From a bacterium (lineage in GTDB: Bacteria; Planctomycetota; Planctomycetia; Planctomycetales; Planctomycetaceae), in the NCBI GenBank assembly GCA_016124895.1, contig WGMU01000129.1, positions 1-46,440 on the forward strand: DNA of 46,440 nucleotides. The letters are read 5' to 3'. Below are positions 27,818 through 29,952 of this stretch, one piece after another (position 1 is the first letter of the stretch; the number at the start of each line of letters is the position of its first letter). A program made the translations under genes and the position numbers. The notes beneath the pieces are model-generated. The model was given only the letters and a program-made list of their open reading frames with translations. It had not been told where the DNA came from and made no database searches.

Positions 27818-27879
27818 GTAGCACGGACAATCCTGTCCGTGGCTGGTGACGCGATCACGGACAGGATTGTCCGTGCTGC
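27818..27879. repeat. 62-bp palindromic intergenic element (copy 2)
   Basis: This is nearly identical to the element at 22801-22860. The left arm GTAGCACGGACAATCC...CCGTG (27818-27841) pairs with 27856-27879 around the loop GCTGGTGACGCGAT, which is two bases longer than in copy 1. Only the terminal bases of the right arm differ (GCTGCC instead of GCTAC). It lies between the convergent coaD and lipA genes. Confidence 0.85.
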
Positions 27880-27922: not shown

Positions 27923-28867
27923 TTAACGGCAAGTTGTCTGCTCGTGTTCCGATGCCATTTCGCCAGCGTGGTAGCTCGAGCGGACGAACGGGCCGCTGGC
28001 GACCATTGAGAAACCGAGGGCACGCACGCGCTCGCCGATTTCGTTGAACTCTTCCGGTGGCAGGTACCGTTCGACCGGCAGATGCGAATCGCTGGGGGCG
28101 AGGTACTGCCCGAGCGTGAGCATGTCGCAGCCGACGCCCCGCAGGTCGGCGCAAACGTCGAGCACCTCGTCGAGCGTTTCGCCAAGCCCGAGCATCAGAC
28201 CACTCTTGGTCGGCATCTCCGGAGCTTCGTCTTTGACCTGAGCCAGCAGGTCGAGCGTCCGCTGGTACTCGGCGTTACGCCGCACGCGGTGATAAAGCCG
28301 CGGCACGGTTTCCGTGTTGTGATTGAAGACGTCTGGCCGGGCCTTGATGACGCGGCTGATCGCCGCTTTGTCGCCGAGAAAATCCGGCGTCAGCACTTCA
28401 ACCTGCGCCCCGGTTCGCTCACGCACTGCCAGCACGCAGTTGTAGAAGTGGTCGGCTCCGCCGTCGGTAAGGTCATCGCGTGTCACCGAAGTGATCACGA
28501 CGTAACGCAGTCCGAGTCGCTCGGCGGCTTCTGCCACGCGTTCGGGTTCGTCGAGTTCGATCGTTTCGGTCTTGCCCTTCGGCACCGAACAGAAGCCGCA
28601 AGGCCGCGTGCAGACATTCCCGAGAATCATGAACGTCGCCGTCTGCTGCGACCAGCACTCGGTCCGGTTCGGACACTTCGCGCTTTCGCAGACCGTTTCG
28701 AGCTGCAGATCGTCGATGACACTCGACGTGTAGTACATGCCAGGCTTCGGCAGCGGCCGTTTCAGCCAGCGAGGCAGACGCCGCTTCTCGTGTCGTGTCG
28801 GCTCAGTGGCGTCAGCCGTGGCAACGATGGGCAGCTCAAATGGGGGGTTGGGGCCATCAAACATCAA
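27923..28867 (-). CDS. lipA: Lipoyl synthase (radical SAM)
   Basis: The 314-residue enzyme inserts two sulfurs into octanoyl groups on lipoyl domains. It has the radical-SAM cluster motif CTRPCGFC, the auxiliary cluster CESAKCPNRTECW, ATFMILGNVC, VTRDDLTDGGADHF, the NHNTETVPRLY motif, LGLGET and the C-terminal RSSYHAGE, all characteristic of LipA. The start at ATG 28867 (or 28864) gives a normal length. It lies 82 bp downstream of the LipB-like gene on the same strand, so a lipB-lipA operon is likely. That makes the missing catalytic residues in the LipB-like protein more surprising. Confidence 0.97.
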   Translation of the reverse strand: MMFDGPNPPFELPIVATADATEPTRHEKRRLPRWLKRPLPKPGMYYTSSVIDDLQLETVCESAKCPNRTECWSQQTATFMILGNVCTRPCGFCSVPKGKTETIELDEPERVAEAAERLGLRYVVITSVTRDDLTDGGADHFYNCVLAVRERTGAQVEVLTPDFLGDKAAISRVIKARPDVFNHNTETVPRLYHRVRRNAEYQRTLDLLAQVKDEAPEMPTKSGLMLGLGETLDEVLDVCADLRGVGCDMLTLGQYLAPSDSHLPVERYLPPEEFNEIGERVRALGFSMVASGPFVRSSYHAGEMASEHEQTTCR

Positions 28868-28949: not shown

Positions 28950-29702
28950 TCAGACTGGCGATGCTTCCCCAGTCGAGATTTCATTCAGGGCTGCTCGCGT
29001 CGTCCGCTTGAGCAGCGGGTGCCGAGTGTAAACGTGAAAGTCGTCGTAGCCGAATTCCGTCGCCAGATGGCGAACGAGGCCTTCACGAACCTTCGGCATC
29101 GGCACAACGCGCATCCGCTGCATCGACAGCGAAGCGATCGTTCCACCGGCCGGAGCACGCTGAATCAGTCGCTGGCCGACGACATCCGAATTGAGGTTCA
29201 GTACGAAGCCGTGCGACGACGCTCCGGCATCCGTACCGCTGCCCAGCCAGGCGAACTGCCCGCAACGGCACTCAAGTCCGGGAGTGGACTGGGACGGCCA
29301 TGCCGGTACGTGCTGCTCAGCCGCGACCTGCTGCATGGCGACTGTCAATCGTCGCTCGAACGTCGGCAGTGACAACTCCAGCCGCTCGATGGGCAGCATC
29401 AGATACCCGACGAGCTGTCCCGGTCCGTGCAGGATGACGCCACCACTGCGGGCGACATACCGGACGTCGATCTGTTGAGCGACCAGGTCTTCCGGTTCGG
29501 CCAGTAGTTCGGCAATCGATCCGTCGCGGCCAATGGAGACCACCGGCGGATGCTCGCACAGAATCAGAACGCCGAGCCGATCGTCCCGCTGCGACATATC
29601 GTCAAGAATCATCCGCTGCAGTGCCTGTACCGCGTCGAAGTCAACCAGTCCCAGCAGATAGACCTCCAGCGCTTCCGAGCACCGGAAAGGCGAGGTGGAC
29701 AT
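28950..29702 (-). CDS. LipB-like octanoyltransferase homologue lacking both catalytic residues
   Basis: The 250-residue product (ATG 29702; ATG 29729 adds nine residues) has the LipB fold: LILCEHPPVVSIGRDGS (48-62), RSGGVILHGPGQLVGYLML (85-103) and SSHGFVLNLNSD (162-173). Counting along the family alignment, the Lys of K-(I/V)-x-x-(I/L)-G is Gln149 (GQFAWLG). The acyl-accepting Cys of the PCG motif is Ala185 (APAGGT). The codons read CAG and GCC on the minus strand. So it keeps the substrate pocket but has neither the nucleophile nor the activating Lys. It may be a pseudoenzyme, or use nearby Cys144/146 (ECRCGQ). The neighbouring lipA suggests the lipoylation pathway. Confidence 0.8.
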   Translation of the reverse strand: MSTSPFRCSEALEVYLLGLVDFDAVQALQRMILDDMSQRDDRLGVLILCEHPPVVSIGRDGSIAELLAEPEDLVAQQIDVRYVARSGGVILHGPGQLVGYLMLPIERLELSLPTFERRLTVAMQQVAAEQHVPAWPSQSTPGLECRCGQFAWLGSGTDAGASSHGFVLNLNSDVVGQRLIQRAPAGGTIASLSMQRMRVVPMPKVREGLVRHLATEFGYDDFHVYTRHPLLKRTTRAALNEISTGEASPV

Positions 29703-29952
29703 CGGACGGAGCGGGTCTGGAGTAAGCATCTGTTAGTGACAGGCCATCAGGGGCGGTCATTTCAAAAGGAAAGCCGATTTCCCGGAACGGGGTTCGGATC
29801 ACCGGCAACACAGCAGCATTGTAGAGTGACACGACTCGAAAAACTTCCGCACGTCAGGTTCGGACACAGTTTTGGCGGGACACCTCGGGAATTGTCGATT
29901 CAACGCGGTGGATCCCATCGATCGTTAACTGCCGGCAGACAGCTTGTCTCCC

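Follow-up and report, generated by a model that had tools for sequence, protein, structure and literature searches.

What does a LipB homologue do when both residues of its catalytic dyad are gone and its gene still lies beside lipA? The question is raised by a 46,440-nucleotide stretch of a genome from the Planctomycetaceae (contig WGMU01000129.1, hereafter the window), in which a first-pass annotation, made from the sequence alone, had noticed a lipB-like gene with Gln and Ala in place of the catalytic Lys and Cys, next to an intact lipA. This observation was confirmed overall. The protein is termed psi-LipB here, a name we use for this LipB-like pseudoenzyme, and residue numbers refer to the window protein.

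A LipB-like protein beside lipA

The psi-LipB frame on the minus strand codes for 250 amino acids when counted from the ATG (Table 1); a longer frame with an upstream start at 29729 is possible. A Pfam search returned the LplA/LipB domain as the sole match (LplA-B_cat, 63 bits versus a cut-off of 27) and no DNA-binding or signalling domain. Five NCBIfam LipB models match the protein, every one of them below its curated cut-off, e.g., TIGR00214 with 49.7 versus 83.55 bits and NF010922 with 61 versus 235 bits. Searching the sequences of solved structures gave three matches, two sequences of Thermus LipB (2qhs and 2qht) and M. tuberculosis LipB (1w66).

An AlphaFold model calculated from the window protein and 57 relatives reached a mean pLDDT of 88. 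Its top structural match is the Thermus LipB 2qhs (Z 29.9, 1.8 Å, 209 residues aligned), and M. tuberculosis LipB aligns with Z 27.1 and 2.1 Å over 203 residues, while LplA-type ligases rank behind the LipBs with Z 22.9 and less. The predicted fold of the window protein is the LipB fold. The neighbouring lipA is intact as described, scoring 365 bits against TIGR00510 (cut-off 310).

Gln149 occupies the column of the catalytic Lys in every alignment as well as in the sequence match to the LipB structures, and the other pocket motifs that had been named (EHPPV, HGPGQLVGY and HGFVLNLN) are present in the window sequence. The reading of the second site as PAG in place of PCG stood in part. The catalytic Cys is missing, but Ala185 falls into its column in one MAFFT run and a gap does so in two others; this placement depends on the alignment because the loop is shorter in most relatives.

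Table 1 Features of psi-lipB and lipA in the window.
Feature	Position	Strand	Basis
psi-LipB gene (LipB-like pseudoenzyme)	28950..29702	-	ORF, Pfam and PDB sequence matches, model, fold match
Cys49 codon	29556..29558	-	Aligns with M. tuberculosis LipB Leu47 (acyl pocket); Cys in 45/50 psi-LipBs and 9/54 intact LipBs
RSGGVILHGPGQ, residues 85-96: retained arm-binding loop, pocket His92, PGQ	29415..29450	-	Joint alignment of 50 psi-LipBs
Gln149 codon, catalytic Lys position	29256..29258	-	Three alignments
Ala185 codon, close to where the catalytic Cys would lie	29148..29150	-	Alignments differ on the exact position
C-terminal segment, residues 219-234, HPLLKR motif typical of psi-LipB	29001..29048	-	Alignment counts
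lipA, lipoyl synthase	27923..28867	-	82 bases downstream of psi-lipB, same strand; TIGR00510 match

Dyad loss and lipA linkage in the class Planctomycetia

A psi-LipB match was found in 52 of the 59 genomes searched, the window's own genome included. We place the relatives in the class Planctomycetia by the genera with close matches (Thalassoglobus, Planctomicrobium, Schlesneria, Alienimonas, Paludisphaera and Singulisphaera), Thalassoglobus and Paludisphaera being members of this class, together with their lineage. One alignment set comprises 49 of the 52 class proteins, and another 57 of the 60 loci with close matches (L183, L189 and L229 left out) plus the window. When the two genomes whose gene is cut by a contig end (G001 and G015) are dropped, the catalytic Cys site holds Cys in none of the 50 class psi-LipBs readable whole. 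At the catalytic Lys site, 26 of the 50 have Gln, 12 have Arg, a single one (G013) has Lys, and the remaining 11 show seven further residues. A gap stands at the Cys column in 35 of the 50, the loop being shortened in most relatives. The relatives therefore share the Gln/Ala pair of the window only in part: the dyad is gone throughout and about half have the Gln, but 23 carry residues other than Gln or Lys. In four proteins (G038, G043, G047 and G056) a Cys lies in an 'RC' one column before the catalytic Cys and could count under another alignment; none of them has the Lys, and a Cys retained through a shifted alignment was rejected.

A profile search across the phylum gave a match in 198 of 246 genomes, with 282-348 bits for class members and at most 189 bits for other classes among the matches listed; the matches of three class genomes in this sample (G161, G192 and G247) stand outside our counts. 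From other planctomycete classes 61 LipB loci were fetched, and all 60 that were readable (54 in a first batch of 55, from which L278 was excluded because the wrong frame had been picked, and 6 later) have both Lys and Cys. These loci are the better-scoring among the matches listed, and low scorers (e.g., G071, G080 and G096), some of them possibly degenerate, lie outside the sample. Relatives with Lys and Cys at the same positions, which had been named as the sign of a sequencing error in the window, thus occur only outside the class, and sequencing error or local mutation was rejected as the cause of the missing dyad since the state is class-wide. A quick maximum-likelihood tree (111 rows) places all 55 dyad-less proteins on one side of a single branch with a support of 100, and the 56 others, including Thermus and M. 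tuberculosis LipB, on the opposite side. On this tree the dyad was lost once, and the 50 psi-LipBs are not 50 independent cases. Among records of deltaproteobacteria and Kofleriaceae, two weak LipB-like matches (L240 and L241, 31-32% identity) were seen.

In a joint alignment of the 50 dyad-less and 54 intact proteins, Gln29, His51, Gly58, Arg85, Gly86, Gly87, His92, Pro94-Gly95-Gln96, Tyr100, Gly142, Gly154, Gly165, Asn169 and Ser191 are kept in at least 85% of both groups. Among the psi-LipBs, Arg85 and Gly95 are found in 50/50, Gly87 and Gln96 in 49/50, His92 in 47/50 and Gly86 in 45/50, and Pro94, Tyr100, Gly165 and Asn169 each in at least 44/50. The window protein has Ser at position 86, i.e., RSG where 45/50 relatives have RGG. 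Lost from the dyad-less group are the Lys, the Pro-Cys-Gly, Trp at position 144 (11/50) and the pocket Thr at position 90 (0/50), each present in 54/54 intact proteins, and a second pocket His, His164, is only partly kept (31/50). Conserved in the psi-LipB group are Cys49, Gly61-Ser62, Gly88, Arg206 and a C-terminal HPLL motif. In the HPLLKR segment, His228 is found in 41/50, Pro229 in 45/50, Leu231 in 39/50 and Arg233 in 36/50 psi-LipBs; in intact LipB these positions are a gap in 28 to 39 of 54, Pro nevertheless being present in 22/54.

The positions in M. tuberculosis LipB that correspond to lipoyl-arm contacts of LplA are Leu47, Thr54, Arg76, Thr81, His83 and His157 (PMC9307952). By alignment they match Cys49, Ser56, Arg85, Ile90, His92 and His164 of psi-LipB. 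Given that the Thr equivalent to M. tuberculosis Thr81 is replaced in 50/50 and that His164 is kept in 31/50, substrate binding may be altered in psi-LipB. The conserved fold and substrate-arm motifs, together with the missing dyad, favour the earlier reading of a pocket-only protein. The alternative nucleophiles proposed with it, Cys144 and Cys146 (Cys145 and Cys147 in the 250-residue numbering), did not hold up, as Cys is found there in only 15/50 and 9/50 psi-LipBs.

Set against known families, psi-LipB resembles the Thermus and M. tuberculosis LipBs in its fold, arm-binding loop, PGQ, HG..LN and position before lipA. The RGG loop (RSG in the window) and the pocket His are likewise found, whereas the PCG-loop Cys, the catalytic Lys and a score above the curated equivalog cut-off are not, and the C-terminal HPLL motif is added. 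With LipM and LplA it has the superfamily fold in common (Z 18-23 to LplA-type chains), but the superfamily Lys position in the KxxGSAxR region is Gln149, and psi-LipB has no conserved Cys at the place of that of the LipM-type protein described below, which carries its own Cys and Lys.

In 98 of 110 loci, lipA is the next gene downstream of psi-lipB and has the same orientation. A psi-LipB frame is present in 109 of the 110, with 92 distinct sequences, and the 98 linked loci hold 83 distinct ones. Six of the 12 unlinked loci are contig ends, one (G006) is the end of the fetched stretch, beyond which lipA does follow, and five rows from three places are real separations. If each ORF is begun at its first start codon, many loci show a short overlap of a few bases between the two; the window has a gap between them (Table 1). 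For intact outgroup LipB, lipA was found within about 1.5 kb in 17/55 loci, a lower bound since some of these loci end at contig ends. From this difference, psi-LipB seems more tightly tied to lipA than intact LipB is.

Across 25 rows, chosen as closest by lipA and containing some genomes twice from two collections, dN/dS was 0.04-0.23 for psi-lipB and 0.02-0.16 for lipA. The value of 0.23 was obtained with a short fragment from the same genus, the only sequence that pairs closely with the window's psi-lipB. The gene psi-lipB is under purifying selection and less constrained than lipA, and with dN/dS well under 1 it is not simply decaying. A retained fold, lost catalytic residues and purifying selection, the marks of a conserved pseudoenzyme, are thus found together.

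Octanoyl transfer and a lipoyl domain without its lysine

Two LplA/B-family matches were found in the window's genome, psi-LipB and one LipM-type protein; among these matches there is no second canonical LipB. LipM-type relatives occur in 59/59 genomes, and those read (37 rows, 36 distinct) all carry the Cys of an LCF/LCY motif and the Lys of a KxxGSAQRR motif, taken here as the catalytic residues of LipM. The label LipM-type rests on motif and superfamily, and the protein of the window's genome has no NCBIfam match above cut-off. Lipoylation is probably needed in this genome because it encodes two GCV_H-family proteins and one E2. From these motifs and occurrences, the LipM-type protein probably carries out octanoyl transfer in these genomes, in line with the earlier proposal that lipoylation must depend on another enzyme. 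Seven of the 59 genomes, all at least 91% complete, have no psi-LipB and still have lipA and the LipM-type protein, although gene absences could reflect assembly gaps. The pathway in these seven is hence independent of psi-LipB as a transferase, and psi-LipB is dispensable.

Some relatives have a third LplA/B-family protein, which is of the LplA type (KFSGNAQ-like and HHGTLL-like motifs) in the 24 loci read (L086-L107, L109 and L111); the LplA/B-family search did not find it in the window's genome. In other planctomycete classes, an intact LipB and a LipM-type match stand together in G061, G088, G132 and G149. Co-occurrence of LipB and LipM is described as very rare in a survey of prokaryotic lipoate assembly (PMC10332631).

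In 44 of the 59 genomes, e.g., at loci L037, L038, L054, L192 and L201, a short frame encodes a stand-alone lipoyl-type domain, which is absent from the window; in 21 of these 44 genomes its frame comes immediately after lipA, in the same orientation. Absence means here that a profile built from 15 sequences had no short-frame match, the line between small domain and E2 having been drawn after the matches were seen. AlphaFold predicts a lipoyl/biotinyl barrel for the small domain (pLDDT 95), with E2 and biotin carrier domains as top matches (Z 11-13), and Pfam Biotin_lipoyl matches 15/15 sequences with E values up to 0.1. The fold is common with E2-type lipoyl domains, which carry the attachment lysine. 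This lysine is missing from the small domain in all 44 genomes and in five further class genomes (49/49 read), but kept in 10/10 readable E2-type domains of the same alignment. This control comprised 11 frames; L328 was set aside as misaligned, and contig ends truncate three of the remaining ten.

psi-LipB is present in 44/44 genomes with the small domain, and the small domain in 0/7 genomes without psi-LipB. The 15 genomes without it consist of these seven and eight with psi-LipB alone (the window's genome G000, G001, G006, G007, G015, G020, G030 and G032). A Fisher test, which ignores kinship, gave p 1.9e-5 for this association; with only the 52 genomes of 90% or higher completeness, p was 5.9e-6. 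The seven psi-LipB absences, mapped on a quick lipA tree as a stand-in for the species tree, need seven changes, six of them forced by starred branches; one of the seven genomes (G027) sits in a group that lacks the small domain anyway. psi-LipB seemed to diverge faster in genomes without the small domain (p 0.004, 6 versus 25 genomes), a comparison biased by a reference set consisting only of genomes with the domain and made on genomes that are not independent. In G028 a short similarity beside lipA (E 0.56) is too weak to be called a remnant.

Real separations of psi-lipB from lipA were seen in G013 (L036 and L364) and G023 (L039); in G013, lipA and the lysine-less domain lie together on a different contig from psi-lipB.

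Outside the class, 20 of the 23 small domains read from short frames have the lysine; these 23 were chosen among the matches listed by a short open frame, together with those beside lipB. The order lipB-lipA-domain was read in four outgroup loci (G072, G088, G132 and G149), and in the 15 of the 20 lysine-keeping genomes whose LipB was also read, the dyad is intact (15/15). The three lysine-less exceptions (G193, G235 and G258) all come from one family of another class, f79. The psi-LipB profile found no LipB in these three genomes, two of which have a weak LplA-like match, and at their loci (L361, L362 and L363) lipA is directly followed by the lysine-less domain. Among the loci read, loss of the small-domain lysine thus goes together with loss of LipB catalysis, in two separate lineages, which suggests that the small domain may formerly have been LipB's own substrate. 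In f79 the lysine-less domain is kept without any LipB, suggesting that LipA and not LipB is its partner there.

Candidate roles of psi-LipB

The reading we prefer, with slightly better than even confidence, is that psi-LipB is a non-catalytic partner in the lipoylation pathway, the old LipB of a lipB-lipA operon, which helps or regulates LipA. LipM would have taken over the job of this LipB, which has lost its chemistry. psi-LipB would then grip an octanoyl- or lipoyl-bearing arm, either of octanoyl-ACP or of the octanoyl- or lipoyl-lysine of a carrier domain, without transferring it, and in holding this arm would help or regulate LipA. Binding of the arm is proposed from the kept motifs and by analogy with the E. 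coli LipB double mutant K135A/C169A, which still binds octanoyl-ACP with a KD of 36 µM (PMC9307952); LipA is proposed as the partner from the gene linkage. The mutant lacks the same two residues in the same fold and illustrates that binding can persist after catalysis is gone; full LipB activity requires the RGG loop (both from PMC9307952). The mutant is man-made, whereas psi-LipB also lacks the pocket Thr (E. coli Thr76) and mostly the loop around the Cys. As a natural counterpart of this double mutant, psi-LipB may allow binding and catalysis in the LipB fold to be studied separately. The idea of a pocket-only protein alongside another enzyme, put forward in the first-pass annotation, is in this respect partly borne out; its alternative Cys nucleophiles are not.

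In most relatives, the lysine-less lipoyl domain may serve as the docking partner of psi-LipB. This pairing is suggested by the shared occurrence and the parallel losses. It leaves the window out, because the lysine-less domain was not found in its genome; seven more genomes likewise have psi-LipB without this domain. Only tentatively do we extend it to the view that an enzyme-substrate pair of the Planctomycetia has turned non-catalytic, with dyad and carrier lysine lost and both proteins retained alongside LipA to form a docking or regulatory module, while LipM octanoylates. At LipA or at the empty pocket of LipB, the dead carrier would act as a mimic of a lipoyl domain, whether modified or not, and the pocket residue Cys49 could serve as a sensor of the lipoyl dithiolane. 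Should the lysine-less domain indeed be the partner, enzyme and substrate would have jointly lost their reaction and kept each other, beside a radical-SAM enzyme.

The retained pocket, and the octanoyl-ACP binding of the E. coli double mutant (PMC9307952), would also suit a sensor of octanoyl-ACP or lipoyl groups that sets expression or activity of the pathway rather than partnering LipA. We regard this as unlikely, as the LplA/LipB domain is the only one recognised in the protein, and the 98/110 linkage points to LipA itself.

That psi-LipB has remained an acyltransferase by relocating its nucleophile, with Cys49 of the acyl pocket replacing Cys176 just as the LipM cysteine sits on another loop than that of LipB, is very unlikely. 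Cys49 is conserved in psi-LipB far more often than in intact LipB (Table 1) and aligns with the arm-contacting M. tuberculosis Leu47, but the lysine at the usual place is missing in 49/50, Cys49 is replaced by Tyr, Gly or Ala in 5/50, and nine intact LipBs have the same Cys. Moreover, LplA Trp37, which matches the Cys49 position, is located at the distal end of the tunnel and remote from the carbonyl, which argues against Cys49 as a nucleophile.

Known LipL acts through a cysteine, and Cys49 is the only one widely conserved in psi-LipB. Both points count against a LipL-like amidotransferase that passes on octanoyl or lipoyl groups from the LipM product, as does the fact that seven genomes manage without psi-LipB. 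Such a protein would fill a gap, since LipM genomes without LipL exist and an unknown replacement has been proposed for them (PMC10332631); we consider it highly improbable here. Relay proteins of the LIPT1/LipL type resemble psi-LipB as superfamily members with roles downstream of the octanoyl transfer step, but they are enzymes (PMC9307952), whereas psi-LipB has no conserved catalytic residue apart from Cys49. Least probable of all is a decaying, functionless remnant: catalytic residues are lost, the seven absences are scattered over the lipA tree, and the window copy has RSG for RGG and is more diverged than expected from its lipA (in the biased test), but psi-LipB persists in 52/59 genomes across the whole class at the low dN/dS given above and has newly gained class-specific conserved residues.

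In searches of the open-licence literature, no paper among the best matches listed combined LipB, pseudoenzyme and lipoyl, and there was no match for pseudoenzyme together with biotin protein ligase and lipoate. For planctomycete LipB, LipA and octanoyltransferase, the only open-licence match with all terms concerns Aquifex metabolism, and the word stem 'planctomycet' is absent from the main text of the survey of prokaryotic lipoate assembly (PMC10332631). What appears to be new is a LipB pseudoenzyme that is conserved class-wide and linked to lipA. A lipA neighbour that looks like LipB is easily taken for the octanoyltransferase; this does not apply in this class, where lipoylation more likely depends on LipM.

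Besides lipA and the small domain, no cluster of neighbouring genes occurs in more than 25 of the 110 loci, overlapping wrong-frame ORFs aside; minor neighbours identified by eye include DNA polymerase III delta'-like and SmpB-like genes, among others. In the window, a perfect 22-base inverted repeat (27820-27841 and 27856-27877) lies between the convergent ends of lipA and a coaD-like ORF, named by eye, and is possibly a two-way terminator or a mobile repeat.
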